A DNA stretch of 23,159 nt. Source: a virus. The position numbers and the translations under genes are program-made. Position 1 is the first letter of the stretch, and each line of letters opens with the position of its first letter. Below the pieces are notes generated by a model. It ran no database searches, was not told where the DNA came from, and saw nothing but the letters and a program-made list of their open reading frames with translations. Location of the stretch: the IMG/VR virus record IMGVR_UViG_3300032053_002817, positions 1-23,159 of that record. The stretch is one strand, 5' to 3'. Below, one piece after another: positions 3,138 through 19,835 of the stretch.

Positions 3138-3425
3138 ATGAACGTGAAACACGTAACACAAAAACTGATAGAGGTCAACGGAACTCCCGTCGATATCAAA
3201 GCGCGTCTGGAGAAAGGAGCATGGGTCGTGATCGCATTCACGCCTGTCTTCTCGATCCGCTCGCACAAGCTGCATCTGCCAAAGGCGCGGGACAACTTCA
3301 TCACCGCCATCGTGAGCGCGGCGATGGATGAGGACGATCCCGAATACATTGAAAAGTTTGATGCGTCTTATGATGAGGTCAACGCAACGCTGCTTCTGGT
3401 AACAGGAAACTTTAATGTTGAATAG
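3138..3425 (+). CDS. Hypothetical small protein, 95 aa
   Basis: The start follows ATAATATAAC with no Shine-Dalgarno site, and lies one base after the stop of the 33-aa membrane protein. The N-terminal ~45 residues read as a small beta sheet (VTQKLIEVNGTPVDIKARLEKGAWVVIAF). The C-terminal half is acidic (AAMDEDDPEYIEKFDASYDEVN). It overlaps the start of the DnaA-like gene by 11 bases, which suggests co-translation. No family was recognised. Confidence 0.7.
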   Translation: MNVKHVTQKLIEVNGTPVDIKARLEKGAWVVIAFTPVFSIRSHKLHLPKARDNFITAIVSAAMDEDDPEYIEKFDASYDEVNATLLLVTGNFNVE

Positions 3426-3753
3426 CCAAAGCATTCTCGAAACTGTAGCCCGCCGTGCAAAAGTCACGGCGGGCTTTCTTTGTTTATCACGCGAGAAGGA
3501 CGTGACCGCATGGAGGATGATCGCCATCCACATGATGCGGGAAAGCGGGATGACGATGGCAAGCATCGCCGCCGCCGTAGGTCGGGACGCATCCACTATC
3601 CATTACGTTTCCACAAAAATAAACAAGCTGAAGAACCAGAAGTGGTTCATCGAAATGCTGGCATCGATTGAGGAGGAGCAACGTCTCGACGTGTTCTGCC
3701 GCCAGCGCATACCAATGACGGTGTACGCTGCGGCGTTCGCATCGGAGGATTAA
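3415..3753 (+). CDS. Stand-alone DnaA domain-IV-like HTH protein, 112 aa
   Basis: Residues 4-73 follow the helical pattern of DnaA domain IV, the DnaA-box binding HTH. SQSILETVARRAKV matches the lead helix, TAWRMIAIHMMRESGMTMASIAAAVG matches the RQIAMYL...LSLPEIG region, and GRDASTIHY (56-64) matches the signature GRDHSTV. The AAA+ domain of DnaA is absent, so this is a DNA-binding protein, not an initiator ATPase. It might bind phage or host origin sequences, or act as a regulator (inference). The start at 3415 is needed to include the first helix. A strong intrinsic terminator lies inside codons 11-24. The TAA shares TTAA with the stop of the giant gene on the other strand. Confidence 0.78.
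   Translation: MLNSQSILETVARRAKVTAGFLCLSREKDVTAWRMIAIHMMRESGMTMASIAAAVGRDASTIHYVSTKINKLKNQKWFIEMLASIEEEQRLDVFCRQRIPMTVYAAAFASED
3447..3485 (+). terminator. Intrinsic terminator inside the DnaA-like gene
   Basis: There is a perfect 11-bp GC-rich stem (AGCCCGCCGTG 3447-3457 with CACGGCGGGCT 3465-3475), a 7-base loop, and then TTCTTTGTTT. The U-rich tract exists only for the plus-strand transcript, so it should stop transcription of the left gene block. It lies within the coding sequence of the DnaA-like protein, about 33 bases after its start, so it may act as an attenuator for that gene. Confidence 0.8.
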
Positions 3754-6700
3754 GGCTCGATGAGAATGTAACGGCTGTATTTTTTAAGCTCGTCGTTCGC
3801 GATCTTTATCCGCTCCATGCCCTGCTCGTTCGTCGGGTCAGCCAGTCTGGCTTGGAAGTCAGGCGTGAGGACGGGACGATCCATCATCTTGTTGAATAGC
3901 AAGCGGGATCTATCTTTCCCGTAACCCATGTTCTTGCCTGTCATAATGCTGTAGATCTCCTGAGTCGGTAAGCCTAAGCCTTCGTACCCGCGCAGCTTGC
4001 GATAGATCTCTTCGTTCATCGCCGCCTTATCCTCCACTTCCGATGTGACGATCTCGCGGATGGATGCCTCATCGATAGGGCGTTCGCTAAACAGCACATT
4101 CTTCCGCTCATTGATGCGGTTGTACACGTCACGCGACTCCGACAAGTAACGCCTGAGTTGCTTATCCAATTCGATATCGTGACGCTTAACAGGATAAACT
4201 TCCTGCATCAGGATACCGATGGGCGAGCTATCAAAATCCGTATAGTCGGAGCCGACCGCCTGATAGGATTTGATGGCGCGATTCATAACGCTTGGCATAT
4301 ACGCCTGACGGAATACGTGAGACATCGACTTGACAAGAACGGTTCCCGTCGAGTCGATCTTCGATTCGTAGATCGGCTTGTCAGTCGCGGGATCACGGTT
4401 GTCTCGCAGCGATTGGATGGCGGATGAGAAGATCTGATCGTCCAGATACTGGTCGAAGATCGCCGTCTCAACCAACGATGCCGCCGCTTTGGCAAGATCG
4501 CCGCGCACCAGATGCTCCATCGAACGCAGGGCTGGATCGGATACCAATGAAAATGGATTGAGGAACGTGAGATCCCAAGACTGTAGCTTGCCATCGGATC
4601 GTCGGCGGTAAAAGAACGTGTGGTTTCTTAAGTAAGAAGGCAACGAAGCGCGTAAGGCTTCGTCTTCATCGTCTCCGATTCCCGTTATCGCACGGAGTAC
4701 GGCGGGAACGATCATCGAAACGCCGCCCACTACGAAGGTCATGCCAGCGAAACGCTTTTGTCCGCGTGCTTTGATGACGCTGTTGTCGCTCCTCATCTCA
4801 TCGATGGCGAGCTTGTACGTGTTCAGTACGATGCGCGGGACTTCAGCTTTGAATCGGAGGAACGGCGAGAACAGTAGACCGATGCCCGACTTGGAGATCT
4901 CCTTCACGATGGGCGGAGCTTGGCTTGCCGACTGCGCTGTCATCAGGACTTTGCTCGCTGCTTCACGCTTCAGCTCGTAGTCACTCATCGTTCCGTACTT
5001 GCCGCCGCCCGCAGTTCTTGCGCTCGTAAGTACTTTGAGTTCGTTCTCATAGTAGGCGATCTTGTAGAATGCATCGGCGGATTGCGCGAGAAGCTGTGCC
5101 TTCTCCGTCAGCCATGTGAGCGGCTTCGTTCCTGAGTGGGCGACCTTGATCAGCTTGTCCAACTGACTTTCAACAGACTGGATTGTGGTTGTGCCGCGCA
5201 GAAGATCCGCCATGACGGTGGCTTTGATTTCGTTTCCGATCACACCCAACGAAATGAGTTCCGAATGGTACGTATCTATCTGATTTGGATCGGAAAGCGT
5301 AGACCAGATTTCTTTGCGAGCCGTACCAATCATCGATCCGAAGTTGACGAAGCCTTGTGAAGGTCCAAAGAAAAGGATGTTGCTGGCGATGTTGCGGATG
5401 TAGAAGCCTAATGATCCTAAAGTCTTCGCCGCCATCGCTCCGCCCGTAAGCTTTGCGAATAGGCTCAACGTCTTAGCCACACTTTCTTGTGCGGTGTCCA
5501 TGTTCTGGTTGCGGGATTCCGAAGAGAAGACTTTGTTCAGACCTTCGACAAGTTCGGGAGGTCCAAAGAGATCGCCCAATGGATCGTAAGCGGATGCATC
5601 TTTAGCATGACGGATTGTGGTGTAGTTCTTATACGTATCGTAGTCAGCGGTTAGCTTCGCGTCCAGCTCTGCTCTGGTCATCAACCAACCGCCATCAACT
5701 CCGATGGTCTTAACGTGTTGTAAGAATGATTGGTTAGCAGCCATCGATGAGACGGTCACGAACGAACGAAGCAGGTTGTCAACTCCTGATTCGGAACCGT
5801 ACTCTCCTAAGATACCGCGAAGTTCTTCTGGTATATCTTTCTTCTGCTTGATGTTCTTCAGAAGGATGCGGAACGATTCAGACATAGATGAACCAGCGAG
5901 AGGGGAGATTCCTTTTTTCTCGTAGTGCGAGATGAATTCCTCCAGAGCGTTCTCTGAGATAGACCTTCCGTTAGCAGCTTTGTTTGCCAGATCGATACGA
6001 GCGTTGTTCTCCGCGTCGGACTCAGTCTCGCCAGCCTTCACCCGACGTGCTGTCTCATACTCCACGAACTTCTCCCCAAAAAAGTCCATCGCTGCCTGAC
6101 GCTGTGGTTCGTATGACGGATCGCTGCGTACCGTTTCGGCAAAGCCTACTTCGTGGAACATCTTATACGAGCGGGTCAAGTAGATGCCCAACTGCGAATC
6201 GAACGTAGCTGCAAGCTCAGGCTTGAATCCGTACAAAGATGTTACTCGATTAGATACTTCATCGGTTAATGTTCTGAGCTGTACAATGTGGCGTGCAAGA
6301 TCGGGAGACTGCTTCGCGAGACTCTCAAGTGCAGCATTGCGTGCCGCACGGATTGCATCGGCTTGTGCTGTTCGTTCCGCATCGATGGCTTGCGCTTTGT
6401 CATCGATAGCAATCTTCCGTGCCGCCGTCTTTTGCTTTGCGTTGAGCGTAGTGTCGATGTCTATCGTCTCAAGTGCTGTTTGATACGTGTCTTCGATCTG
6501 ATCGACGATAGCTTTGTCCAAGACTGTACCGCGTGTAGATCCGATGGCAGCTGCGATGTCGTCGAGCGGTGCGTTCTTCAGAGAACCGAAGTCCTTCTCG
6601 ATGATACCGTCGAGCTTAGTCTTGTAGTTCTTAACCAGATTTGCAGCTGCGCTCTTGAAGAAGTCGCGATGGTTCTTCAGAGTGGTGATGCGCGGGTCGA

Positions 6701-6860
6701 GTTCTCCTTTGAAGAGACGGTCTAGTATTGTTTTGGGCGAGCGGTACGTACCGACTTCAAGCATCGGCATCTCCAACGCTTGCACGAAGTTGCTGAAGTC
6801 CATCTTGTCCGCGTCGAAGCGAGCGGGCAGTTGTGATACATCGCCGAAGGATGTACCTAC
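3750..6860 (-). other. Giant protein segment F (residues 3094-4129): LPD38-like C terminus
   Basis: A long charged helical region (about 3150-3330) leads to TLGSLGFYIRNIASNILFFGP, then GIGLLFSPFLRFKAEVPRI (3752-3770) and a hydrophobic GMTFVVGGVSMIVPAVLRAITGI (3799-3821). This order matches what I know of 'large polyvalent protein associated domain 38'. The last ~200 residues are charged and helical. Probably structural: packing in the capsid or membrane insertion. Confidence 0.5.
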
Positions 6861-9800
6861 TTTGATTGAGTCTCCTCCATTCTGCGGTACGAATGGCGCA
6901 GCCCGCATCTCTTCCGTTATAGATCTCGCACGGAGTGATCCTTTCGGTAGGATGTGTACGGGTATCGCCGCAGCTCCTAACTCCGAAGCGGCATCTGTTC
7001 GGCTACGTCCTTCATGGTCTGAGACTTCCCAGACTTTGGATCGCTCATTCCAAATGGCTGACAAAAATGGAGGAGCGATTGCATTCCCTTCCGCTATCTG
7101 ATTTTTAATAAATGGAATAGTCTTCTCGTCGAAGTTACCTTCTGGAACTAATGAACGGAAGTCAGCTGGACTCATCGTCTTGACGAATCCGAAGTAGTCG
7201 ATATCAGCCTGATTCGGAGTACCTCCTACGCCAGTGCTGTCCCACTTTATGTCACCGAAGGATGTACCTACAGAGACATTAGTTTGTCCAGTAGCATTTC
7301 CAGTTGCGAGTTCGTCATCCCCTCCGCTATTTCGTGGGGTTCGATTGGTTCTGATGGATTCTGCGATGGCTCTGGCTTCGTCTCCGAATCCGCGTTGCGT
7401 TGCGATGTTAATGAATTCTTCGTCATAAGATAGTTTAAGGTTGCTCTCCTCTTTCCCTGTTAGCTTTGCCCAAAGATCTTTTTCTGGATACCACAGGATG
7501 GCTTGGATGTCTGCGTTAGTGGTTTCATATCCTAATGCTTTTAATTGTAAACGGCTATTGTTGACAATCTTCGTGATCACTCTGCGATCTTGATCGGACG
7601 GTGCATCGATGGGGTTGAGCCTTGCTTTGATGACGCTCGCGGCATTAGCCCATGATGGCTTAACCTCTTTCATCTGGTCTTTGGTAAGGAACGTATCCCT
7701 TCCTGCTTTGGCAAACTCTTGCGCCCTCCACGCATCAATCGTAATGCGCGGAGTCTTACCTTTTGCAACCAGCGCATCAAATTTATTTGGCAAATCATTA
7801 AGCAACACTTCCCGTTTGGCATCGGTAAGCTTTTCTTTTTTAGCCGCAGCGATAGTCTCTTTTGTTTTCTTTGCCATCCAAGCTTCCCGCGTAGTCGGAG
7901 GAAGGTTCTTACTGGCTGACAGTGCTGCGTGTTCTGCGTTAATTTTTGTGGCGAGCTTATCCGTAGTAGCAACATATTGCTTTAAAGTTATTTTGCCAGA
8001 CAGTAAGTCGTCGGACAACTTCTGACTTATCGGCTGACCCAATAACTTGTATTGACGTTCCCATTCAGCGTTGAGCTTGATGGCGGTATCGTTGCACAGC
8101 TCCCTGAATTTTCTATCTGTCGTGAGTCTTTCAACGGCGGTATACTCAACGGTTAATTTTGTACTGCCATCTTTTTTTATGATAGGCTTGCCCGCTTTAT
8201 TTAGGTCGGGAACAAGCTTAATCTTTTCGAGAGCATAAGGTAGAGGGACATTAGCTTCTCTCGCTCCAATAATTAAGTTAGCCAGACGAGATTCAGTAAC
8301 GCCGTCACCGACTACATCGCCAGTCCATCGACCCCATGTACGCCGCATCCATAGATCAACCGTGACAGGATCATAGACCGACAGTAAATTCTGTAAGAAT
8401 CCCTGTCCAATCTTCGGTCCAAAGAGTGCCGCTCCGTTTACTTTGTCGTCGTTGGCTCCAGAGACGGTGACTTTCTTGCCACGGATCTCGCTTGCAATCG
8501 CCGTCAACTGTTTAACAGTAAACTCTTTTCTAACAAACATCTCCCCTTCTCCATATCCGTATTTTGCAACTAGAATATTTGCAAGATTGAGATTACTTTT
8601 GATTGCTGCGGCTTTCGATCCGTAGCTTATTGTTGGGTCAAATTGTCCGTCACGCTTTAGTGCTGTGAATTGCTCTTCGGCGTATCGGGTATTCTGTTCT
8701 ACGTTGATGTTCTGCGAAGTGATGGCGAGTGCCATACGCATTGCAAAGTTCGCTGCCTGTACTGGATCAGCAGCAGAAGCAAATGCTGGCACAGCTCTCG
8801 CTGCGTTGACATCTGAGAGTTCGGGATGGATAACAGCGGCAACACTCATCGCTACTTCAATCGCAGTAGAGTACCAGTCGGCGGCATTCCTTCCGCTAGC
8901 GTTGAGCGCGGCGACAACTTCTCTTGTGCAGTTGTCCGTGATAATAGCCATCTGCTCTGGAGTAATGTTGTTGCTAGTAACTATACCGCCCCAGAATTTT
9001 TGAGCCATCTCCGCCAGTTGATTGGCAACAACTTTGTTGGTAGCTTTGACCGCAGACTTTGTCGCTCCATGTAGTAACAGGAGAGAGGACATTGGGAACG
9101 GAGCTTCTGAAAGTTGAGCAGCTAGATCACCGAATGATGTGCCTACTTGATTAGAGAACATTCCAACTACGTCGGATGGATTCTCTGGATCGAATGACAT
9201 TGAGTTCGGAGACAAACGATATCCCGATTGCAGCGCACGCATCTCAGTGACGATGCGTTGGACGGCTACAACTTCATCGGCAGACATCGCGAGAACAGAC
9301 TTGCCACGAACAAAAGATCCAACTTCGTTATTGATGTTGATTGTGTTGCCAAACATCAGGTTGATCATGTTCTTTAGGTAACGTCCAAGAATCTTTAATG
9401 TGCTTGGGTTAGTTCTCCAGAAGGCGTAGTCCTGTTCGGTCGTAGTATTGCGCTGAACTTTCTGTGCCAGCATCCGTAAGCGTTCCTCAACGAGACGTAT
9501 CTTCTCTGCTCCCGAAACTTCAGGATCTTCACTGCGAAGTCTTTCAAGACCGAGCGCACGGTTGGCTTCGTTACCGTAGTATTCGTTTGCGATCTCTTCA
9601 AAGTCCGAATCCTTTTTAGCCTTGACGATGGTGTCGATCTCAGATTCCGTAAGTGAGTTGAACGAAGCGACGTGACGCATCTCCTCATCCACCATCGTCT
9701 TGATGGCGAGACTCGCTTGAGCTGGAGTCCTGCCGATGAGGAGTGCCGCTACGCTCTGAGGATTCATTGACATCACTCCCGTCTGAAGATCAACCTCAGC

Positions 9801-12800
9801 CATTGATATCTCAATGTCCCAACGTAATGCAATCTCTTTAGGAACCAGTCGGCGGACAAGAAGCATCGAACGCTTCATCGTCTCGATCATCGTTTTGTTC
9901 GTATCCGTTGTAGGATCAAACGCGATACTGGCGGGATCAACATCCAACATCAAATCAGAAACCTGAACATCCTCATCAGCTTTTGCTGCGGCTTCTTCTG
10001 CTTCGGCGGCAGCGTACTCGTTATCGAGAACATTACCGTCTCCAGTAACAGCTCCGAACGCAGTGCCTACACTCTTCGCGTTAGCCAGCAACTCGCTTGA
10101 CTTAACGGCGAGCTTGTTAATCAAACCGCTTGGAGCGTTAGGCGCAGAGTGAATAGCTGAACGTGTGAGATCGATCACGTCCGTGAACGCCTGTTGGTAA
10201 GCGGACTGTCTTGACTTGCCCATTCCGAATACGTCGAGAATCGCATCGACAACGCGAGCAAAGAATCCACGTTGTTTAGCTGGAGGCGTGAGAGTCTTAA
10301 CCAGATTCTGGAAATCGGTTGACGTAAAGAAGTGTGCGACGAACTCGTTAAGATCAACCAGACCATCCGTTAGCATCGGTGAATCGATCCCGTTATTGGC
10401 AGCGGTATCACGTACCAGATTCAGGATTCCGTTCAAGCGTTGGATAGCAGAACGCTGATCTTCCGTTTGAAGTTCGGTCGGAGCGGACACTACTCTGTTC
10501 ACGAAAGCGTGCAGATACTCATGCATCAATGCATCGGATAGTCCTCTGCCGTTGTGTCCATTCAAGTTCAACGATACGGCTGACGTACCGTCTGCCATCA
10601 CTACGAACTGACCAGCGTATGGTAAGCTGACTTCGTCTAATGAGAAAGTAACTTGTCGGATAAAGGATTGGTTCTCCAGTAGGAGTCTAGCTAGAAGCTT
10701 CTTGTTCGGATCTGTATCCGTAGCGGCGATGACTTTAAAAGCGTTGATGACGGATTGTGGATCACCATCCTTCAGCCCTAAGCTTGCGACATCTGCGTCG
10801 TTCAGATTGCGTGCGAACTGTGCTTGTTCTCCGCGCACGTAGGATCGCGAGAACAAACGTGTGGCTACTTGTCCGATTGACTTAGCAAACTCTCTGGCTT
10901 GTCTGTTCGTTACGGTGAATCCAGATGACGATGAAAGATTTCTTGCCAGTTCTGCAATGTAATCAGGATCTTGATCAATGCTTCCAGTAACTGATCTAGA
11001 TGCGATGTGCATAATCTTCAGCGCATCACGCAGAGCCGTGCCATTTTCATAGTCACCGTCTTGAAGACCTCTTTGGAAAGCAATGGCTTCGGGATTGGTA
11101 GCGTGGTTCCCGCTTGCCATCCACGATGCGAGTTGACTGAATGCGTCTTGCGAAGTCATCCCGCTGATATCGAATGCACTATTCCCTTTATACAATGTAC
11201 TACGTAATAGTTTATCCAACGCTGTACGTAACTCAGGATCAGCATCGATGGATTCGATGGCATCCGATGCCGTGCGTTGTAACAAACCCTTAGTGAACTG
11301 AGACGTTGGGCTAAACAGATTCTTATCAGGAGTAATGTGCTGGATAGATACTTCTTGATTAGGATCATATGCTTGATCAGAAATCTTAGAGAGCTTGTCT
11401 GGAGACGTTGTCTGGAACAATGCTCTACGTGCAAATAAGTTTCTTCTTCTCTGCTGATCTGCATACATATTGCCAACTTTTTCACCGACAGAACGTAAAG
11501 TCGGTGGGACGGTAGGAGCTGTGAGGATATGGTTGTTGATGAAGTTAGCGATAACTAGATCAGGATTTGTTTCAGGATTCACATCGCTTCCGAATGTTTT
11601 TTGGAGGCGGGTAGCAACGATAACTTTTTGGTTGACCCCCTCTGGCTTCGTTAATCCAATGAATTCATTGATAGCTGCGCTGACTCTGTCAGGTTTAAGC
11701 GAAGGAGAAGCTTCTCCAGAGACACGCTGAGAGGATTTGTCGAATGACAATCGCATGGCGTGCAAACGCAGCGCACGGCGGTATGCCATATCGAACGCAA
11801 TCGTCGCCGTTTCTTGGAAAGTACTATCTAATGTACCAGAGTACGGCTTAATTGCGTCCGCAATACGGGTAGCAGATTCATTTCTACTTCTGCTTCTGAT
11901 CCTCAAGCGAGCGGCATTGGCACGCACCGCATCTCGATATTCTGTCTCATCTCCCTGATCTTGGAGCTTCTCCATAGCGTCGGTACGCATATTGGTTACG
12001 GTATTAAGTGCATCTCTGAGAGTAATCTTTTCGCTTTGCTTAAGCGGGTTTGAGATAATTTGCTCGCCAGCCGTCTTGTTATTAAACAAGTTTTCAAAGT
12101 CACTTACTTTCGTAATGAAGTCGTAATCTGGTTCCTCACTAAGAACGGTATCCTGTCTCGTAAGCGTCGATACGAATCCCGATCCCGTTGCGGGATTTAC
12201 TTTGACGATATCAGTAAGAATATGCTCGCTGCCTAGCTTGCTGTATCGGAATGATGGATTGATCTTACTAAGATCAAACCCTTCAGGTATCACAACAGGA
12301 TGGTTGTTCTCCATCAGTACCTTCATCGTCAACGGATTGTTGTCGAACTCACCGACACCATTATCGTTGACGTACCCTGTAGGAGCAGTTCTGGTTTTCT
12401 TATTTAGTTTAGTATCAAATATAGTTACTCTGCTACCTATTACTTTAGTCCAATTTTTCTGTACGGATAGGGCGATAGACTTATACATCTCAGCCGTCTT
12501 CTTGGCTATCAAGTCAGACTTGCCCTCAAGATATCCTGTGTCGTAAGATGCACGCTTCGGGTATCCGTGTAGTTCTTTCGCCTGTAAGCGAACGGGGAAC
12601 CCGTATCCGATTAGGCGTTTAAGCGTGGAGATTTCTTGTCCAGTAAACTCGTCGTCGATGAACGTCTCTTCATCAAATATTTCTGGTACTTTTTCAGTGG
12701 GTTTCTCAGATACATCTTGCCCGAAGGATGTTCCTACTTTGGTTGACTTCTTGCTAGCTTTGGTTGGCTTCTTGCCAGCGGCAATGATCGGGACAGACGC

Positions 12801-15800
12801 GACAGTATCTTCAACAGCGGCTTCGACAATAGCTTCGCTCTCGTCTACGGAGCCAGCGTGGTTGCTGCTCTCCATGATAGCTTCTTGAATCGGATCAAGT
12901 CCAAGCTGTTCGGCATCAGCCGTCTTGTCTTGGTTCTTGATGCTCCGTCTAGAACGTGGAACTTTTACTGGCGGTGCGCCGTTAGCGGATAGCTGGAGTT
13001 CAAGTTGTCCCGTCGGAGCAGATGATGCTTCTTTAAGAGATGCCTCTTTCTGTTCCATCTGAGCGACAACAGGACTAACTCCTTTTCTGGCAGCGGTTTT
13101 GCGTCCCTTCTTTGCCGTTTCATTCGGGATAGAATCAATATCCATCCCCACATCTGGAGCCTTATTGGGGTCGGTGACGATGGCAGAGGCAACAGATTCT
13201 TGTGACGTGTTCGCGTGTAGTGCGGCAGACATCTTTTCGACTTCGGCTATCGTCGTCGGCATCTTCGGCTTCTGCTTTGCAATCGCTTCTTGATTATTTG
13301 TCAAATCAAGTTGCGTGATAACGGTAGCTGCTTCGTTGCCATCTTCATCCGTGTAAGTTACTTCTCTAGTTTCTGGATCGTATCCAGTCACTTTAAGTAC
13401 ATCACCAAAACGATCAGTGATTTCTCCTGCGGAAGCAACGTCCGACTTCAGGAGTTCGTGCATCACGTCGTAGTCATCGGGAGTCTTGTACTCTGCTTCA
13501 GTAGCCACAACAGGCGCAGCCACAACAGGCGCAGCCACAACAGGCGCAGCCACAACAGGCGCAGCCGCAACAGGTGCAGCCGCAACAGGTGCAGCCACAA
13601 CAGGCGCAGCCACAACAGGCGCAGCCGCAACAGGTGCAGCGGGACGTGATGCTTTTAACTGCGCTTCAGCTGCCATTGCGCGTGTGCGTCGTGGAGCTGA
13701 CAGAATTCCATATACGGCTTGAGCCGTTAATGGACTGCCGCTGGCTTCAAGCGAAGAGCTGACTCTTTTAGCGAAGTCAACTTCAACCGCCAGTTGGCGT
13801 TCTCGCGAGCTTTGTTTGAACATTGGAGCAGCAGCCCCACGGATCGCTGGAACACCTGCGCCCATAAACCCACCGAGAAGTGCGGCGTAACCCGCTTGTT
13901 CTAGTCGCTTGAGGAACGGAGTATTCTGATCGGTTGCTGCATCGGTTATGAATCCGTTGATGAAGTCATCAAGACCTTCTTCCCCTGCTTCGTCTACAAA
14001 CCCTTTGCCAACTTCTTTAGTTAAGTTTGATCCGTATTTTTTAAATACGTTTTTCATTTCTGCCGCAACAACTTTATTGAAGACTTCGTCTTTGATGTCG
14101 CTGACATTGGCGATACGCGCCATAACGGATTTGAGTTCGCTTCTGGTAGCACCTTTGAGCATTGCGTCTTCAAGACCGCCGTGACCAAATGCTCCGAACG
14201 CGCCCGTAATCAATCCTGTAATTGCTCCTGCTGCTAGTCCCGCTCCCAACGCACGGTCGTGACGTTCTTCGGGAGTGATGTCTTTATTGTTTTCCAGCTG
14301 TAGATACACACCTGCATAGGTAGCACCAGCAGAACGGTTGAACGCAGGAATTGCCATCGCCGAAGTGACCCCGACCTTTTTAGCCATCTGGCTATTGAAT
14401 CCGTTGATAGCCGCCATCGATCCTTTTGTGCCAGCTTCTTTAACCGATTCTTTAATCAAGCCAGCAGCAGCGATGCGAGATGCTGCTCCTTCTACTGTCT
14501 CATTTGGTAGCTGGCGGAACGCCCCACTAACCAAACCTTTAACCAATCCCTTAGCGGTAAGTCTGGCTCCCTGTTTTGCAGCGAGATATGCAGCACCTCC
14601 GATCCCGCCAGCTGGAGCGGTTGCCATAGCTAGAAGCGTCGTAGCTGCCATGTCAACGATCATTGGAGCAATCGTCTCTGAGAGATCTTGACCCATGCCA
14701 TACTCACGTCCGAACATACGTGCAACCTCACGTCGATTCTGCCTCTCTTTGATGTTGCCCACCATGTAATCACGCGCCCAATCAGCACCCATTATCGCTG
14801 GCACGGCGGATAACAGTTCCCCAAAACCGTCAAGAATGGATTCTTTGATGCCGCCTACGCGGCTTGTAAGCTCGCTGAAGTTATCTGGATTAGATACAAA
14901 TTGCTGAAGAGTATCCGAGTCTTTACTCCCGCTGGCACGCCCGCTCTGTAATGCGTTAAGCCAGTCACTTGAAATCGTAGATTCTGTTAGGATTTTGTTG
15001 TAGCTATCAAACGAGTTTGCTGCGGATATTTCACGCTGTGCGTTCAGAGCAGTCCTTTGGCTTTCCGTAATCTCAGGATGCGCTGCTAGAGCTTTATCAA
15101 ACAGTGGCTTGTTCAGCATCAGTGCTGGAGAAACAAATGGCGTGCCATAACCGACGTTGCGGACGTTGCGACCCACGTCTTCATCTTCATAGAATTTAAA
15201 TTTGTTCTGGTCGTTCGCCGAATAGTAAGCCAGTTGAGTAAGAGCTTTATCAACTTCTTCGTCACTAAACGTATGACCTGATTTAAGGTTGGCGTTGAGG
15301 GAACGCCGTACAGCGGAGATGTCAGGCTTCTGAGCATCAAAGATTTCTCTATCGTTCTCATCAGCCCATGCGAGAGATGTTCCAAAAGAGTCAACAACTT
15401 TAGCCGTCTGCGCATCGTTCTTAACAAGCTCGCCAATCATAGCGGCAGCTTCGTTATAACGTGCCACTTTATATAGCGGAGCTTTGTACCCTAACGGAGT
15501 GCTGAGTAGCGACTGCACGTTCAGAGCGTCTGAGAAACCAACGCCTCCTGTTTTACTGGAGCGGATAGCTTCGGAAAGGTTCATCGAATCCATCATCGAT
15601 CCAGCGATGATTTCTTGCTCGCCGTCTTCGTTAGTTACTCTAGCAAGTGGTAGTTCTCCGTTAAGTACTTTGATACGTTTTGCAGTATCAAATCCTTTTA
15701 GGGCAGCTTCTTCGGCTTCTTGTCTGTAACGGTCACGCGAAGGGATTAAGTCGGGAGCGAGATTATCAAGATCTTTATGGACGGATTTGAAAGTCAAGTA

Positions 15801-16139
15801 ACGATTTGCAGCCGCCCATTCAGGATCACTGGTATCCATCGCGTCTGCCATCATCAAGAGCTTCGTGTCAAGATCTGGCTCTTTAGTCGTAAACAAAGAG
15901 TCTACTTCCTCTTGGTTAGTTGGATCAATCAATCCAGCTTCAGCGGCTTTGTCTCTGGTTGCAGTGTTGATCTCGTTTGCAACGGTGCTATTGTAAGAAT
16001 TTGATTTGATATATTCTCCGCGAACATAGTCAGCGTATCCTTTCCTATTCTCGATAGCGTCTCCCGAATTATTTTGCGGCTCCCAATCTTTAAACGAAGT
16101 AAAGTCAGGCGTTTTGAGTAAGTCTTCAAGCTCTGGCAT
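3750..16139 (-). CDS. Giant multidomain polyvalent phage protein, 4129 aa
   Basis: One uninterrupted frame, roughly 450 kDa. In order: a helical N terminus; membrane-active glycine/alanine helices (about 489-523, 629-652, 748-771); a (P)VVAAP linker (836-880); a zincin-like site MHEYLHAF (H1873, E1874, H1877) with a downstream NEFVAHFF glutamate (E1932); a degenerate DEEMRH site (2151-2156); a helical domain with GPK...VTVDLWMRR and IQAILWYPEK (about 2480-2900); a ParB-like domain with HEGRSR (3042-3047); and an LPD38-like C terminus (GIGLLFSPFLRF at 3752). VGT(S/A)FG recurs at 1135, 2024, 2332, 2957 and 3094. Known: phage 'polyvalent' proteins of this architecture are packaged and injected with DNA. 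Inferred: this is an ejected virion protein, possibly processed. It follows the 338-aa gene by 28 bases, in the same transcript as the two smaller putative virion proteins. The start ATG at 16137-16139 has no Shine-Dalgarno site. Confidence 0.88.
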   Translation of the reverse strand: MPELEDLLKTPDFTSFKDWEPQNNSGDAIENRKGYADYVRGEYIKSNSYNSTVANEINTATRDKAAEAGLIDPTNQEEVDSLFTTKEPDLDTKLLMMADAMDTSDPEWAAANRYLTFKSVHKDLDNLAPDLIPSRDRYRQEAEEAALKGFDTAKRIKVLNGELPLARVTNEDGEQEIIAGSMMDSMNLSEAIRSSKTGGVGFSDALNVQSLLSTPLGYKAPLYKVARYNEAAAMIGELVKNDAQTAKVVDSFGTSLAWADENDREIFDAQKPDISAVRRSLNANLKSGHTFSDEEVDKALTQLAYYSANDQNKFKFYEDEDVGRNVRNVGYGTPFVSPALMLNKPLFDKALAAHPEITESQRTALNAQREISAANSFDSYNKILTESTISSDWLNALQSGRASGSKDSDTLQQFVSNPDNFSELTSRVGGIKESILDGFGELLSAVPAIMGADWARDYMVGNIKERQNRREVARMFGREYGMGQDLSETIAPMIVDMAATTLLAMATAPAGGIGGAAYLAAKQGARLTAKGLVKGLVSGAFRQLPNETVEGAASRIAAAGLIKESVKEAGTKGSMAAINGFNSQMAKKVGVTSAMAIPAFNRSAGATYAGVYLQLENNKDITPEERHDRALGAGLAAGAITGLITGAFGAFGHGGLEDAMLKGATRSELKSVMARIANVSDIKDEVFNKVVAAEMKNVFKKYGSNLTKEVGKGFVDEAGEEGLDDFINGFITDAATDQNTPFLKRLEQAGYAALLGGFMGAGVPAIRGAAAPMFKQSSRERQLAVEVDFAKRVSSSLEASGSPLTAQAVYGILSAPRRTRAMAAEAQLKASRPAAPVAAAPVVAAPVVAAPVAAAPVAAAPVVAAPVVAAPVVAAPVVATEAEYKTPDDYDVMHELLKSDVASAGEITDRFGDVLKVTGYDPETREVTYTDEDGNEAATVITQLDLTNNQEAIAKQKPKMPTTIAEVEKMSAALHANTSQESVASAIVTDPNKAPDVGMDIDSIPNETAKKGRKTAARKGVSPVVAQMEQKEASLKEASSAPTGQLELQLSANGAPPVKVPRSRRSIKNQDKTADAEQLGLDPIQEAIMESSNHAGSVDESEAIVEAAVEDTVASVPIIAAGKKPTKASKKSTKVGTSFGQDVSEKPTEKVPEIFDEETFIDDEFTGQEISTLKRLIGYGFPVRLQAKELHGYPKRASYDTGYLEGKSDLIAKKTAEMYKSIALSVQKNWTKVIGSRVTIFDTKLNKKTRTAPTGYVNDNGVGEFDNNPLTMKVLMENNHPVVIPEGFDLSKINPSFRYSKLGSEHILTDIVKVNPATGSGFVSTLTRQDTVLSEEPDYDFITKVSDFENLFNNKTAGEQIISNPLKQSEKITLRDALNTVTNMRTDAMEKLQDQGDETEYRDAVRANAARLRIRSRSRNESATRIADAIKPYSGTLDSTFQETATIAFDMAYRRALRLHAMRLSFDKSSQRVSGEASPSLKPDRVSAAINEFIGLTKPEGVNQKVIVATRLQKTFGSDVNPETNPDLVIANFINNHILTAPTVPPTLRSVGEKVGNMYADQQRRRNLFARRALFQTTSPDKLSKISDQAYDPNQEVSIQHITPDKNLFSPTSQFTKGLLQRTASDAIESIDADPELRTALDKLLRSTLYKGNSAFDISGMTSQDAFSQLASWMASGNHATNPEAIAFQRGLQDGDYENGTALRDALKIMHIASRSVTGSIDQDPDYIAELARNLSSSSGFTVTNRQAREFAKSIGQVATRLFSRSYVRGEQAQFARNLNDADVASLGLKDGDPQSVINAFKVIAATDTDPNKKLLARLLLENQSFIRQVTFSLDEVSLPYAGQFVVMADGTSAVSLNLNGHNGRGLSDALMHEYLHAFVNRVVSAPTELQTEDQRSAIQRLNGILNLVRDTAANNGIDSPMLTDGLVDLNEFVAHFFTSTDFQNLVKTLTPPAKQRGFFARVVDAILDVFGMGKSRQSAYQQAFTDVIDLTRSAIHSAPNAPSGLINKLAVKSSELLANAKSVGTAFGAVTGDGNVLDNEYAAAEAEEAAAKADEDVQVSDLMLDVDPASIAFDPTTDTNKTMIETMKRSMLLVRRLVPKEIALRWDIEISMAEVDLQTGVMSMNPQSVAALLIGRTPAQASLAIKTMVDEEMRHVASFNSLTESEIDTIVKAKKDSDFEEIANEYYGNEANRALGLERLRSEDPEVSGAEKIRLVEERLRMLAQKVQRNTTTEQDYAFWRTNPSTLKILGRYLKNMINLMFGNTININNEVGSFVRGKSVLAMSADEVVAVQRIVTEMRALQSGYRLSPNSMSFDPENPSDVVGMFSNQVGTSFGDLAAQLSEAPFPMSSLLLLHGATKSAVKATNKVVANQLAEMAQKFWGGIVTSNNITPEQMAIITDNCTREVVAALNASGRNAADWYSTAIEVAMSVAAVIHPELSDVNAARAVPAFASAADPVQAANFAMRMALAITSQNINVEQNTRYAEEQFTALKRDGQFDPTISYGSKAAAIKSNLNLANILVAKYGYGEGEMFVRKEFTVKQLTAIASEIRGKKVTVSGANDDKVNGAALFGPKIGQGFLQNLLSVYDPVTVDLWMRRTWGRWTGDVVGDGVTESRLANLIIGAREANVPLPYALEKIKLVPDLNKAGKPIIKKDGSTKLTVEYTAVERLTTDRKFRELCNDTAIKLNAEWERQYKLLGQPISQKLSDDLLSGKITLKQYVATTDKLATKINAEHAALSASKNLPPTTREAWMAKKTKETIAAAKKEKLTDAKREVLLNDLPNKFDALVAKGKTPRITIDAWRAQEFAKAGRDTFLTKDQMKEVKPSWANAASVIKARLNPIDAPSDQDRRVITKIVNNSRLQLKALGYETTNADIQAILWYPEKDLWAKLTGKEESNLKLSYDEEFINIATQRGFGDEARAIAESIRTNRTPRNSGGDDELATGNATGQTNVSVGTSFGDIKWDSTGVGGTPNQADIDYFGFVKTMSPADFRSLVPEGNFDEKTIPFIKNQIAEGNAIAPPFLSAIWNERSKVWEVSDHEGRSRTDAASELGAAAIPVHILPKGSLRARSITEEMRAAPFVPQNGGDSIKVGTSFGDVSQLPARFDADKMDFSNFVQALEMPMLEVGTYRSPKTILDRLFKGELDPRITTLKNHRDFFKSAAANLVKNYKTKLDGIIEKDFGSLKNAPLDDIAAAIGSTRGTVLDKAIVDQIEDTYQTALETIDIDTTLNAKQKTAARKIAIDDKAQAIDAERTAQADAIRAARNAALESLAKQSPDLARHIVQLRTLTDEVSNRVTSLYGFKPELAATFDSQLGIYLTRSYKMFHEVGFAETVRSDPSYEPQRQAAMDFFGEKFVEYETARRVKAGETESDAENNARIDLANKAANGRSISENALEEFISHYEKKGISPLAGSSMSESFRILLKNIKQKKDIPEELRGILGEYGSESGVDNLLRSFVTVSSMAANQSFLQHVKTIGVDGGWLMTRAELDAKLTADYDTYKNYTTIRHAKDASAYDPLGDLFGPPELVEGLNKVFSSESRNQNMDTAQESVAKTLSLFAKLTGGAMAAKTLGSLGFYIRNIASNILFFGPSQGFVNFGSMIGTARKEIWSTLSDPNQIDTYHSELISLGVIGNEIKATVMADLLRGTTTIQSVESQLDKLIKVAHSGTKPLTWLTEKAQLLAQSADAFYKIAYYENELKVLTSARTAGGGKYGTMSDYELKREAASKVLMTAQSASQAPPIVKEISKSGIGLLFSPFLRFKAEVPRIVLNTYKLAIDEMRSDNSVIKARGQKRFAGMTFVVGGVSMIVPAVLRAITGIGDDEDEALRASLPSYLRNHTFFYRRRSDGKLQSWDLTFLNPFSLVSDPALRSMEHLVRGDLAKAAASLVETAIFDQYLDDQIFSSAIQSLRDNRDPATDKPIYESKIDSTGTVLVKSMSHVFRQAYMPSVMNRAIKSYQAVGSDYTDFDSSPIGILMQEVYPVKRHDIELDKQLRRYLSESRDVYNRINERKNVLFSERPIDEASIREIVTSEVEDKAAMNEEIYRKLRGYEGLGLPTQEIYSIMTGKNMGYGKDRSRLLFNKMMDRPVLTPDFQARLADPTNEQGMERIKIANDELKKYSRYILIEP
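6861..7271 (-). other. Giant protein segment E (residues 2957-3093): ParB-like domain
   Basis: This 137-residue unit is bounded on both sides by VGTSFGD. It contains a strand/helix lead-in (QADIDYFGFVKTMSPADF), APPFLSAIWNERSKVWEVSDHEGRSRTDAASELG and a final strand AIPVHIL. This follows the ParB/sulfiredoxin pattern in which G/D-HxR (here HEGRSR, 3042-3047) begins a helix, followed by 'G...vPv.i'. ParB-like domains occur in polyvalent proteins. Its small size and clean boundaries make it the best test case for processing. Confidence 0.6.
7272..9146 (-). other. Giant protein segment D (residues 2332-2956): helical polyvalent-type domain
   Basis: This 625-residue helical segment contains GPKIGQGFLQNLL...PVTVDLWMRRTW (about 2574-2604) and ADIQAILWYPEKDLW (about 2876). 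Pairs of such motifs recur in a domain of unknown function seen in phage proteins; I recall it as DUF7178-like but cannot verify that here. A lysine-rich helical insert lies between them (about 2700-2830). No catalytic residues could be assigned. Confidence 0.45.
9147..10070 (-). other. Giant protein segment C (residues 2024-2331): degenerate zincin-like
   Basis: This 308-residue segment holds TMVDEEMRHVASFNSL, where EExxH (E2152 to H2156) replaces HExxH at the start of a helix. EEIANEYYG follows at a distance compatible with a third-ligand glutamate. The preceding ISMAEVDLQTGVMSMNP resembles a zincin edge strand. It may be an inactive or altered relative of the domain in segment B. This reading is tentative. 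Confidence 0.4.
10071..12737 (-). other. Giant protein segment B (residues 1135-2023): zincin-like domain
   Basis: Near the end of this 889-residue segment, ALMHEYLHAFVNRV places H1873, E1874 and H1877 in an HExxH arrangement. LNEFVAHFF 55 residues later offers E1932 or H1936 as third zinc ligand. The preceding strand AGQFVVMADGTSAVSLNL fits the edge strand before the active helix in zincins. Family knowledge: HExxH zincins are frequent in phage polyvalent proteins. The rest of the segment is mostly helical and unassigned. Likely an active peptidase; its target may be the host or the protein itself. Confidence 0.7.
12738..16139 (-). other. Giant protein segment A (residues 1-1134): membrane-active N terminus
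   Basis: This is the part before the first VGTSFG. About 480 helical residues precede glycine/alanine-rich hydrophobic stretches at roughly 489-523, 629-652 and 748-771 (for example GAGLAAGAITGLITGAFGAF). Between them is FVDEAGEEGLDDFINGF, a pattern common between membrane helices of phage ejection proteins. A VVAAP linker follows, then about 250 charged, probably disordered residues. Penetration of the host inner membrane during DNA ejection is inferred from the hydrophobic pattern only. Confidence 0.6.
13501..13635 (-). repeat. Nine 15-bp tandem units encoding VVAAP/VAAAP
   Basis: Nine consecutive 15-bp units of GCAGCC(A/G)CAACAGG(C/T) fill 13501-13635 exactly; the first begins GTAGCC. Read on the minus strand they give proline-alanine-valine pentapeptides at residues 836-880. 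Only two unit variants exist (ACA..C giving PVVAA, GCA..T giving PVAAA), so the array is young or homogenised. It likely forms an extended, protease-resistant linker after the membrane-active domain. Confidence 0.9.
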
Positions 16140-16167: not shown

Positions 16168-17184
16168 TTATTTAAATTTATCCGCGATTCCCGATGTTGG
16201 TATTCCTACCAGTCTTCTAATTGCTCCAGTTGTGGAGCGGTAAGCGTTACGGTACAGTTGTTCCGATGTATATTTTGATAGATCAGCATCTTCAATCATA
16301 GGATTTTGTGTTCGGATGATCTCTTCTAACTGAACTTTATCTTCTGGCTTAAACGTAAATGGAGCGGCTTGTGGCATTCCGTTCTTAGGAACAGGAGCGT
16401 TCGACGATCCGTCTTTGAGAGAACCGATTGAGAAACCTTCATCTTCTTTTGCTGCAGCCATTTGATCTAACTGTGCGAGATTCCGATTAAGAAATGCGAG
16501 TTGTCCCGTCATCTGTTGTGTTCTGAGTTTCTCTTGCTCTTCCCGTAGACTCAGATCGCTCTTGTACTTAGCACTAGATCTAGCAGATTCCTCTTGCTGC
16601 TGGTTGATAGCGGTGGCAGCGTCGTAGTACTGTCTGCCAGTACCTTCAGAGACATCGCCGCCGAATACGCCTTTAACGGCTTCAGGCAGTCCTTGTGTTG
16701 CGAGCGCGTAACCCAATGCCGTCTTCTGTTTCTCCGTCTCGTCTTTGTTCCTAAGCGTATCTTCAGCAGAAGAAACGAGATTGACGAGACTCTTGTTGCG
16801 AGTGAGGCGACCAGAGTTCTCCATCTTATACTGACCCACAGCTGAAAGTTTTTCAAAGCTGTTCTTACTTGGATCGTTAACGATTCCAGTAATTATTTGA
16901 AGATCGTTTGGCAACGTCTCTAACGCTTCACGCTGCGCTTTGGCTTCGTCGGCGGCATTCATCAATTCAAGCTGTTGACGCTTAAACAAAATTTGCTGGG
17001 ACTGCGCCTTGAGCATATCCTCTTGAGTCTTGATTTGAGATTGGACGTAAGGGTCTACTTCCGCAGTGTACTTGCTCGTCAAGTAACTGGCAGCACCAGT
17101 GGTCAGACCTCTACTTGCCGCCACATCTGAAAAGAAATTGCCCTTCATCGGAGCAATAGAAGAATCGTAGGAGAACTCAGGCAT
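16168..17184 (-). CDS. Putative virion-associated helical protein, 338 aa
   Basis: No sequence family was recognised. The protein is dominated by helix and coiled coil, rich in Gln, Glu and Lys: QSQIKTQEDMLKAQSQQILFKRQQLELMNAADEAKAQREALE (about 48-90) and INQQQEESARSSAKYKSDLSLREEQEKLRTQQMTGQLAFLNRNLAQLDQMAAAKE (about 193-247). The C terminus ends NAYRSTTGAIRRLVGIPTSGIADKFK. It starts 8 bases inside the end of the preceding 214-aa gene and lies 28 bases before the giant gene. Position between TerL and a giant ejection-type protein suggests an internal virion or ejection protein, as T7 gp15 sits before gp16; this is inference by order and composition only. Confidence 0.75.
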   Translation of the reverse strand: MPEFSYDSSIAPMKGNFFSDVAASRGLTTGAASYLTSKYTAEVDPYVQSQIKTQEDMLKAQSQQILFKRQQLELMNAADEAKAQREALETLPNDLQIITGIVNDPSKNSFEKLSAVGQYKMENSGRLTRNKSLVNLVSSAEDTLRNKDETEKQKTALGYALATQGLPEAVKGVFGGDVSEGTGRQYYDAATAINQQQEESARSSAKYKSDLSLREEQEKLRTQQMTGQLAFLNRNLAQLDQMAAAKEDEGFSIGSLKDGSSNAPVPKNGMPQAAPFTFKPEDKVQLEEIIRTQNPMIEDADLSKYTSEQLYRNAYRSTTGAIRRLVGIPTSGIADKFK

Positions 17185-17821
17185 TGGGGAGGTTAGTGTA
17201 CTTAGTGGAGTCGAACTTACCTAAATCAAGATCTTTATTCTGTTGATCAAGTATTCTATTTAAGGTGTCGCGCTGTTTCTTTTTAAAATCAGCATCAGCT
17301 GCTGCTTCGGTCACAGCCGCTTGTTTGCTTTGTTCCCTAAGTTCAATGAATGATTGGCTCTTAATCGAAGGCTCACCGCTTACTTTTGCAGCGGCTCCCA
17401 TAGCTCCAAACTGATTTGCCGCCTGTGTAAGGCCCATCCTTCCAAGCTTACGAGCCATACGAAAAGCTTTTCCCGATTCAGATTCAAGACTGCGCGGAGG
17501 CGCACTCAACAGACTAGTCGCTCCCGTAGGCGAATTCTGCATCTTATCGTAACGATCTAGTAAACGGGTTACGGGTTGGGTTCCGATTGGAGCTGGCTTA
17601 TCTTCAACGCCACTGTATCGGTTAAATTTATTTCTAACTTGATTCTCACTTAATCCAATGCCCGCTCCTTCTGCTGCCAACTCTTTTGCAGTTTCTTGTG
17701 GAGTCATAAATGACACATCGTGATTTGTCGTTGCAAATAATTTAATCTTTGCGTCCAGATCTTTCCGCTTTTGCAGTTCAGCATTATCTTTTGGAGCTAC
17801 GTAAGTCGAAGGAAGTGCCAT
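17177..17821 (-). CDS. Putative virion-associated small protein, 214 aa
   Basis: No family was recognised. The N-terminal third is helical (DNAELQKRKDLDAKIKLF), with SENQVRNKFNRYSG near residue 78. The middle is Ala/Gly-rich (GKAFRMARKLGRMGLTQAANQFGAMGAAAKVSG, about 116-148). The C terminus is coiled coil (AVTEAAADADFKKKQRDTLNRILDQQNKDLDLG). The Gly/Ala helix resembles the membrane-seeking segments of small ejection proteins such as T7 gp14 in size and place, without recognisable homology. A consensus-like promoter ends six bases before its ATG, so its mRNA may be leaderless. It overlaps the 338-aa gene by 8 bases. Confidence 0.75.
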   Translation of the reverse strand: MALPSTYVAPKDNAELQKRKDLDAKIKLFATTNHDVSFMTPQETAKELAAEGAGIGLSENQVRNKFNRYSGVEDKPAPIGTQPVTRLLDRYDKMQNSPTGATSLLSAPPRSLESESGKAFRMARKLGRMGLTQAANQFGAMGAAAKVSGEPSIKSQSFIELREQSKQAAVTEAAADADFKKKQRDTLNRILDQQNKDLDLGKFDSTKYTNLPNA

Positions 17822-17827
17822 TCGCAG

Positions 17828-17856
17828 AATTTACTGCAACAACCTTACTTTGTCAA
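17828..17856 (-). promoter_or_regulatory. Sigma70-like promoter TTGACA-17-TAAATT
   Basis: On the minus strand, TTGACA (17851-17856) is followed after exactly 17 bases by TAAATT (17828-17833). The -35 box is perfect and the -10 box matches 4 of 6. Only six bases separate the -10 box from the ATG at 17821, so transcription would start at or next to the start codon. This would drive the 214-aa, 338-aa and giant genes. Confidence 0.55.
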
Positions 17857-17879
17857 TACTGTATCGTTTTGTTGGAAAT

Positions 17880-18034
17880 GTATTTACATTGTGAGTAACC
17901 TTTAAATTTTCCCTTTAATATAAACTTTATTATTAACTGGAGTTACATTGATTCTCAAGAAGCAATGTAACTCCGACTAACGTAGGAGTTTATAATAGGG
18001 GTATGAAATGCCAGTTTACTCACATTGTAAATAC
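17880..18034. repeat. 155-bp concentric imperfect dyad between TerL and the virion genes
   Basis: The outer arms 17880-17899 and 18014-18034 are inverted copies with one mismatch and one inserted base (core TTTACA(A/T)TGTGAGTAA). The inner arms 17939-17950 and 17963-17974 are perfect. Both pairs share one centre near 17957. The 39-base stretches between inner and outer arms have equal length and match at 18 positions, including TATAAACT in register. The region is AT-rich and noncoding. Candidate roles are a tandem operator, a replication origin or a terminase recognition site; the sequence does not decide. Confidence 0.75.
17939..17974. repeat. Perfect 12-bp hairpin at the centre of the dyad
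   Basis: GGAGTTACATTG pairs with CAATGTAACTCC. Inside, after one A-G mismatch, TTC/GAA pairs again, leaving a TCAA loop. An alternative, mutually exclusive hairpin can form between AACTCC (17969-17974) and GGAGTT (17985-17990). No U-tract follows on either strand, so it is not a standard terminator. Confidence 0.8.
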
Positions 18035-18037
18035 ACC

Positions 18038-18063
18038 ATCTTGCAAATAGCGAATTGCAAGAT
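18038..18063 (-). terminator. Hairpin at the TerL stop codon
   Basis: A perfect 9-bp inverted repeat ATCTTGCAA / TTGCAAGAT (18038-18046 and 18055-18063) with an 8-base loop directly abuts, and shares one base with, the TerL stop codon. No run of U follows in the direction of TerL transcription. It may be a weak or factor-dependent terminator, or an mRNA 3'-end stabiliser. Confidence 0.4.
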
Positions 18064-19835
18064 TAGTCGTAGATAACGGATTCGTCGTTTGCCAAAGCGT
18101 TGCGGAGCGAAGCAATAGTCGGACGCTGCATCCTGCTTCCGTTATCTTTTTTCTCGAAAGGCTCCACGGCAACCATGCCATGACGCTGTCGCGCTAAGTC
18201 GAGACAGAGGAACGCGGCATCCGCTAAGTCGGGAGATCTTCCAAACTTCGATTTGAATTCGATTTTCGATTCGATTTTGACGCGCAGCGACGTTCCTTTG
18301 ACCAGCTCATAGTTTCTAGCACAGATCTCTTTGGCAAGATCGACATTGATTCCAAACAACTGCTTCGTTCTGATAAGTTCCTTACCGACGAACCAGAGTT
18401 CGGATACACGATTTATGTACAGCTCCTCTCCCGTAAGCTGGCTGTTGGCACTCACACGCCTGTCAGACGCTCTGCCGCCGAAGCCGACCCGCAAGAAGGC
18501 GGGTGACCACTCTCCCGCCAGAACGTCGCAGAAGGGCGCACCTGCTCCCGTACTGTCCACCGCGATGTTATCGGGCAGAATGCCGCGCTTGAGGCAGTGT
18601 TCTTTGATTTGTTGTACAATCTGATACGTTCTTGGAATAGCCTTATTCCTAGCGTCATCGTTCAAGTGGATGGCTTCGCCCAATTCCGTGACAAAATGCC
18701 CGTCCTTATTGTATCCGACAAGTCCTGTATAAAGAATCGTTCGGTCACCACCGTTGGTGAACGCAGGATCGATCCCAGCAATCGGAGTCGGTCTTCCCTG
18801 CCACTCAACTTTGTGAAATGCCTGACTGCGCGACAACTCCGCTTCGGAGTAAATCCCTTCTGTCTCTTCCGAATCGAAGAAAACGGCGCGAACCATCCGC
18901 ATATATCCACGCGATGTCTCTCCCAATAAGGCTCTGTCTTCCGCCAGCTTCTCTTCTGTAGGAAGCCAAGAGTACAGTGTTTTACCAGCCAGAATGTTCG
19001 GAGAACGCTCGCCGTCCAATCGAATGTATTTGCCTCCCCATTTCGTTTCCCACTCATCATCTACTTGGACATCGATGCCGTCCCAACCTCTTTTCGGTTC
19101 TGACCATACTCCAAATGCGTCGAATCGACTATTCGGATTGGACATCCCGATCATCTGGAACTCTGGATTCTTAGACAAGTTAGATAGTCCTGCATTCAGA
19201 ATGGCTTCGCTTAGTTCAGAAAGCTCGTCTCCAATAAGTATGACCCGCTTCTGCTTGATACCAATGAACTTGCCGATGGCTTCGCGTGTCTTACTCCGCT
19301 CCGCTGCAATCAACGAAAGACCAGCCTTCTCGATCAAGTCACCGTTCTCATTGATGTAAGCGACGTTACCAATGGAATCCCGAATCCTGATGGGTGCGTC
19401 CTCAAGCACCGTCAGCAAGCTGATCACGGAACCCCATATCCGTTTACGCGCTTCGCGTAGCGTTGTGGACGTTAAGAGCACCAGAGTGTCACGCGGTTGT
19501 GCTAAGAAGTTCACAATGCCCCAAGCAGCCATCGTATGCGATTTTCCGCTGGATGCCGATCCTCCGATGGCGAGATACTTATTCCGTATCGCTGCTTTAA
19601 TCATCCGATCTGCCCACGGATGACGAACCATCAGCTGTTCTGCCATGTCAGGGCGATTCCAAAGCTCGTCACAGATGCGCCAGAAATAATATTCTTTAGC
19701 AATAGGCTTTGTATGGTTCGCGAAACCGTACAGCAACGCCGTGATTAAACTCGTCGGTCTGATCTCCAGACCTCCGACATCCATCTTTTTTGTTGTAGGA
19801 TTGATTCTAGGTTCCAGAACATTTTTTGTTTGCAT
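18063..19835 (-). CDS. terL: Terminase large subunit (packaging ATPase-nuclease)
   Basis: 590 residues, normal for TerL. The ATPase domain has Walker A GGSASSGKS (91-99), Walker B VILIGDE with catalytic D203-E204, and a coupling-type motif MSNPNS near 231. The C-terminal RNase H-fold nuclease has D356 in IAGIDPAF, D427 in IAVDSTGAG, and D536/D539 in SPDLADA, together the metal-binding acidic set. It cuts concatemeric DNA and powers its translocation into the prohead through the portal. The start ATG at 19833-19835 leads MQTKNVLEPR and has no Shine-Dalgarno site. A TATAAT box lies about 50 bases upstream. Unusually, the next genes are putative ejection proteins instead of portal, and the terminase-small-like gene is divergent. 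Confidence 0.95.
   Translation of the reverse strand: MQTKNVLEPRINPTTKKMDVGGLEIRPTSLITALLYGFANHTKPIAKEYYFWRICDELWNRPDMAEQLMVRHPWADRMIKAAIRNKYLAIGGSASSGKSHTMAAWGIVNFLAQPRDTLVLLTSTTLREARKRIWGSVISLLTVLEDAPIRIRDSIGNVAYINENGDLIEKAGLSLIAAERSKTREAIGKFIGIKQKRVILIGDELSELSEAILNAGLSNLSKNPEFQMIGMSNPNSRFDAFGVWSEPKRGWDGIDVQVDDEWETKWGGKYIRLDGERSPNILAGKTLYSWLPTEEKLAEDRALLGETSRGYMRMVRAVFFDSEETEGIYSEAELSRSQAFHKVEWQGRPTPIAGIDPAFTNGGDRTILYTGLVGYNKDGHFVTELGEAIHLNDDARNKAIPRTYQIVQQIKEHCLKRGILPDNIAVDSTGAGAPFCDVLAGEWSPAFLRVGFGGRASDRRVSANSQLTGEELYINRVSELWFVGKELIRTKQLFGINVDLAKEICARNYELVKGTSLRVKIESKIEFKSKFGRSPDLADAAFLCLDLARQRHGMVAVEPFEKKDNGSRMQRPTIASLRNALANDESVIYD

Follow-up and report, generated by a model that had tools for sequence, protein, structure and literature searches.

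A palindrome family with conserved symmetry at late-operon boundaries in a large group of uncultured phages

A concentric DNA dyad behind the terminase gene terL of an uncultured phage is one member of a palindrome family not described before, here called PAL, whose copies stand at late-block starts within a large uncultured phage group. PAL reads best as a two-fold symmetric, DNA-level control site at operon boundaries, and is a clear natural case in which pairing, copy number and position are kept whilst the inner sequence is wholly replaced. For late transcription in this widespread phage lineage, of which no isolate was found among the records searched, it provides a cis-element and, in the protein family f12, a candidate regulator. 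A literature search for such elements returned nothing matching.

Results

A concentric dyad in the gap behind terL

The window, a 23,159-nucleotide IMG/VR contig (IMGVR_UViG_3300032053_002817), contains the dyad (PAL-1 of this phage) at positions 17879–18035, in a 241-nt gap between terL and a 214-aa gene, both leftward. Over its 157 bases the dyad aligned to its own reverse complement with 71% identity (blastn, E = 1.1e-15), its gapless symmetry score of 17 was above all 40 first-order simulations of the window (mean 9.8, maximum 13), and single-strand folding gave z-scores of −8.1 and −9.0, which shuffled sequences never equalled. The outer arms at 17879–17901 (containing TGTATTTACATTG) and 18013–18035 are 91% complementary, the nested arms at 17916–17955 and 17958–17997 are 73% complementary, and the inner arms at 17939–17950 (GGAGTTACATTG) and 17963–17974 (CAATGTAACTCC) form a perfect 12-bp pairing. 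Inner parts are centred at 17956.5 and outer arms at 17957, bearing out the common centre near 17957 and the equal 39-nt spacers (17900–17938 and 17975–18013) described in a sequence-only reading of this DNA. Two boxes conserved over 115 sites (see below) lie at 17919–17926 (TATAAACT in the window, AAAAACTTT or AAAAAGTCT in relatives) and 17987–17994 (AGTTTATA in the window, AAAGTTTTT or AGACTTTTT in relatives); arms and boxes are given on the plus strand. The dyad had no match in Rfam at the gathering threshold.

In front of the dyad lies the co-directional terL (18063–19835, minus strand; phrog_2, E = 1.6e-16), with a small separate terminator-like hairpin at its stop codon (18038–18063, minus strand, from a terminator scan). 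Behind it the 214-aa gene (17177–17821, minus strand), an open-reading frame without a family match, is the first of its operon and is preceded by a sigma70-type promoter, TTGACA-17-TAAATT (17828–17856, minus strand), about 100 nt past the dyad centre. The −10 box ends only 6 nt ahead of the ATG, as in some relatives, so the message of this gene may be leaderless. An initial placement of the dyad between terminase and virion genes held for the terminase, whereas the downstream genes of 214, 338 and 4129 aa gave no match in a PHROGs search. The last of these is a single open-reading frame (3750–16139, minus strand) occupying half of the window, with counterparts of about 3350–4400 aa in relatives.

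PAL in related phages

We fetched 80 relative loci via terL, all on metagenome contigs. Within the DNA taken per locus, the sole centred palindrome scoring ≥14 lay directly behind terL, where a few loci had two or three overlapping palindrome centres. Setting one terL clade aside, all 59 relatives sampled had a hairpin of the same plan behind terL; the loci without PAL-1, the copy between terL and the next late gene, all fell in one clade of 22 rows in the terL tree, and every other locus possessed it. Although PAL sequence differs from lineage to lineage, AAAAA(C/G)T(C/T)T recurs as one box and its mirror image as a second. Relatives retain the pairing whilst the inner sequence changes completely, which speaks against a decayed palindrome and for the other possibility raised from the sequence, a deliberately symmetric site or operator. 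Loss of the symmetry in related phages, named in that reading as an outcome that would refute it, was not what we observed.

Complete and larger relative records carry two or three PAL copies each. PAL-2 opens the portal/capsid operon, immediately ahead of the gene for f12 (~150 aa), and several genomes have it in tandem, the two units lying 119 bp apart; in two genomes (G026 and G028) a third copy lies ahead of a 347–350-aa gene. We take the ~750-aa gene of the PAL-2 operon to be the portal from its place and size, as it had no family match. Across 22 complete or partial genomes nearly all PALs lie between co-directional genes, mainly between terL and the next late gene and between f13 and f12–portal, and these two sites are fixed across lineages with only 74% of terL in common; our counting expression misses divergent PALs, such that "no PAL" in some genomes denotes no canonical form. 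The core lies 0–3 nt from the upstream stop codon in many genomes, and directly at the stop codon of the preceding gene in the G025–G031/G047 group. Searches of INPHARED with the phage DNA, the terL protein and the portal gave no match, and related terL genes occur in MAG records with mutually conflicting labels (Blastopirellula, Opitutae and Altibacter).

Individual contigs showed further variation. In L100 (positions 1–224, genome G005) the contig end has a third PAL and, after it, GTGTCATAAATATGACAACGGAAAGA repeated in tandem at least five times, whilst L176–L178 have, ~160 nt ahead of f12, palindromes with the A-tract boxes inside out (AGAAAGTTTTTT...AAAAACTTTCT). L017 is without most of the inner hairpin found in the near-identical L016 and L018, as though it had been deleted or had dropped out in assembly. 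Many contigs (L023, L050, L202, L205, L232 and others) extend no more than a few hundred bases past terL, where the palindrome probably interrupts the assembly.

Anatomy of PAL

Pairing was analysed over 115 distinct sites, which are related by descent, so that the counts of pairs and mismatches below are of non-independent events. The first 16 pairs from the centre are 88% Watson-Crick, a value that drops to 38% once right halves are exchanged at random among sites; three to four pair types occur at every position and all four at nearly each. Pairing at positions 17–25 is 45% (32% shuffled), hence the spacer is largely unpaired, and rises again to 83% (63% shuffled) in the box at positions 26–37. 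The box-to-box span is mostly 63–65 bp (mode 64), and the left and right boxes are almost symmetrically conserved. G-T mismatches (345) were as frequent as A-C mismatches (351), without the tolerance of G-U expected of RNA pairing, which implies selection on DNA and not on RNA.

The outer arms are optional and lie at about ±75 from the centre. At this distance the motif TGTATTTACAT(TG) flanks PAL-1 in G001, G002 and G003 and PAL-2 in G007; in these four motif-bearing genomes it was confined to PAL flanks, the sole exception being a one-mismatch copy ~118 nt from the centre in G003.

PAL-1 and the late promoter

A promoter of the form TTGACA-16/17-TANNNT was present behind PAL-1 in 38 of 39 distinct PAL-bearing lineages, but in 0 of 15 without PAL-1 (scanned for TTGAC plus a −10 box, ≤450 nt from terL); base-shuffled sequence yielded such a promoter at 5.5%. 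The joint presence or absence of PAL-1 and promoter indicates that PAL marks an operon boundary, and we regard this coupling as the strongest functional clue, bearing in mind that the PAL-less lineages are one clade and that the pattern may reflect a single evolutionary event. PALs and promoter stand at the starts of late operons, where an operator would be located, "late" being judged from the portal and terL context. The distance from PAL to promoter is variable, at about 65–120 nt.

Concerted change and inverted copies

Copies within a genome resemble each other far more than copies of different genomes. Inner-arm identity is 0.96 within against 0.41 between genomes, box identity 0.94 against 0.73, and in the eight bases just outside the boxes these values fall to 0.56 and 0.39. 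Around half of the within-genome pairs are flipped relative to each other, and in G007, G013, G025, G026, G028–G031 and G047 a copy is flipped with its spacer included. Copying between loci in either orientation would account for both the within-genome sameness and the flips, and template switching is a known creator and repairer of such stems (PMC8794818). We conclude that recombination or template switching probably keeps the core copies alike. The origin and upkeep of the symmetry, whether by template switching, gene conversion or selection, can be tested from sequence data alone.

Two comparisons between close relatives bear on single events. In L033, compared with L032 and L056, the left arm has been rewritten to the right arm to give a perfect 74-bp palindrome, which looks like a template-switch correction. 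L047 and L050 differ by a flip at the same locus at 100% identity, which may be an assembly artefact, L050 terminating at the palindrome; flips between loci in complete contigs escape this problem. An empty-site test of the third copy found none, the neighbouring family f192 being known from three contigs only.

Candidate binding proteins

The f12 gene lies 24–170 nt behind the symmetric site at nearly all loci, outside the window. Its ~150-aa product contains two repeats of a NUMOD4-like motif (beta domains), and amongst widely shared families f12 ranks with the most divergent (median identity 33%, compared with 70–76% for portal and terL). Of 47 members, 5 matched Pfam NUMOD4 at E ≤ 0.1 (lowest E-value 5.1e-6) and 38 matched HNH PHROGs; no HNH catalytic motif was visible in f12. 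An AlphaFold2 model (mean pLDDT 91) had no meaningful Foldseek match amongst solved PDB folds, and the PDB profile match was a weak one to I-HmuI (E = 0.071).

Distance in f12 follows inner-arm distance beyond that of the portal (partial r 0.44–0.47), and L151 and L152 have near-identical portals with different f12 and different arms. In a genome screen of all families for a trans factor f12 ranked third of 43, after f128 and the DUF5906 primase, in a set of few independent genomes where the ranking hinges on one or two. Divergence of the primase tracks that of the inner arms (partial r 0.50, 18 genomes), a signal which drops away once two genomes are removed and which sliding windows along the protein assigned to no single domain. 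Of 15 genomes without a canonical PAL call, 12 have f12, many with variant dyads upstream. On these sequence comparisons f12 is the likeliest candidate for the PAL binder, and the helix-turn-helix (HTH) proteins suggested earlier, encoded at 3415 and 19905, are weaker ones. The former (3415–3753, plus strand; 112 aa) resembles the HTH of the DnaA C-terminus (PF08299, E = 4.5e-7), falling slightly short of the curated cut-off. Family 13, directly before PAL-2, is a small, very basic protein with repeated K/R-EYYxxNR motifs and a possible DNA-binding partner.

Discussion

Function of PAL

The match of PAL copies within a phage and their difference between phages suggest that a rapidly evolving phage protein recognises PAL as a switch. 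We favour, at somewhat under an even chance, a late-gene operator as the role of PAL, with f12 its probable binder. In this model a symmetric oligomer of a phage DNA-binding protein would contact both A-tract boxes, which at ~64 bp or six helical turns apart would face the same side of the DNA, together with the lineage-specific inner dyad, and would control the late promoter 65–120 bp onward in both late operons simultaneously, whether by activation, repression or as a roadblock. An activator that touches RNA polymerase in one set position fits poorly with the variable distance to the promoter. Encoded directly behind PAL-2, f12 would regulate its own gene, and recombination or template switching may insert the core either way, since the site would work symmetrically.

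Like a terminator, PAL often sits directly against a stop codon and finishes with a T-run, which speaks against this operator. In the main rival reading PAL would be a bidirectional intrinsic terminator or insulator: the upstream transcript would stop there, the next operon would start from the promoter behind it, and the sameness of copies would be due to recombination only. The core 0–3 nt from the stop codon in many genomes, the right-side T-runs of most sites, the very stable hairpins and the shared presence or absence of PAL and promoter would all fit; yet the stems are AT-rich, G-T mismatches equal A-C mismatches, the box span is constant across an unpaired spacer, and both boxes are equally conserved where a stop is needed in one direction only. 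The window's own dyad has an interrupted T-run and went uncalled in the terminator scan, and we consider a terminator somewhat unlikely. A further reading, in which PAL is a small repeat without a regulatory role of its own that moves or homogenises itself, with an unspecified mechanism spreading and flipping it, seems decidedly unlikely. Identity between copies does fall at the boxes, and the frequent flips (including the same-locus flip of L047 and L050), the tandem pair and the third copy behind a gene known from only three contigs are as a mobile element would leave them, but the two main sites are fixed across distant lineages, neither a tyrosine recombinase nor a Y1 transposase was found in 16 genomes, no empty site was found and the promoter coupling is left unaccounted for.

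An origin or a packaging site had also been proposed from the sequence, and both sit poorly with two to three copies at late-operon starts between co-directional genes and with the coupling of PAL-1 to a promoter. That PAL is a replication origin, with the DUF5906 primase-helicase or a different replication protein as its binder, is very improbable: PALs do lie in AT-rich stretches and the primase correlates with the inner arms, but that correlation fades without two genomes, PAL is absent together with the promoter, GC-skew extremes follow the gene-strand switch, and the skew minimum in most genomes lies ~1.4–1.9 kb from PAL-1, at the divergent terL start. For a pac or cos site one may cite that PAL-1 adjoins terL and that some contig ends are close to PAL; however, palindromes break assemblies regardless, the clade without PAL-1 still has terL, there are several copies per genome, and the end repeats of closed contigs fall at varying map places, which does not suggest one fixed end, making this function extremely improbable.

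Returning to the operator reading, an extended form, which we consider rather unlikely, is that PAL and f12 are a fast-evolving specificity pair in lytic phages, in which all sites of one genome evolve in step with the regulator, and the 74-bp core is held uniform, whichever way round it lies, by a mechanism dedicated to copying or inverting it. If so, related phages could not read each other's late switch, which would constitute an immunity-like barrier.

Comparison with known systems

PAL resembles several described elements in part. Like integron attC sites it is an imperfect palindrome behind a stop codon with conserved outer boxes and a variable inside (PMC3053210), but it has A-tract boxes, constant length and sites fixed in place; attC was rejected, as none of the 16 genomes searched had a tyrosine recombinase (PF00589), whilst the control was positive in 14 of 14. 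A protelomerase telRL site was likewise rejected (PF16684 in 0 of 40 records). REP/BIME elements likewise are palindromes that recur in the gaps behind genes, facing either way, whereas PAL has only two to three fixed, promoter-linked copies; the Y1 (RAYT) family PF01797 occurred in 0 of 16 phage genomes, although the enzyme could be host-encoded. Intrinsic terminators share the hairpin and T-run behind a stop codon, but PAL has no strand bias, and has symmetric boxes, a fixed long-range geometry and AT-rich stems. By profile, f12 resembles I-HmuI-type HNH homing endonucleases in its tandem NUMOD4-like DNA-binding motifs, but has just two tandem domains and no HNH motif was seen in it.

The phage phi29 regulator p4 is a phage-encoded protein of the late switch, which acts at early/late promoters with the host sigma70-type RNA polymerase and binds sites with inverted A-tract ends, 5'-CTTTTT-15 bp-AAAATG-3' (PMC3100819). 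A p4-like protein was not identified in the PAL phages, whose f12 is NUMOD4-like, and p4 half-sites are 15 bp apart whereas PAL boxes are ~64 bp apart around a hypervariable inner dyad. By analogy, PAL may in part work like the p4 sites, with which it shares symmetry, A-tract ends and a sigma70-type promoter (PMC3100819).
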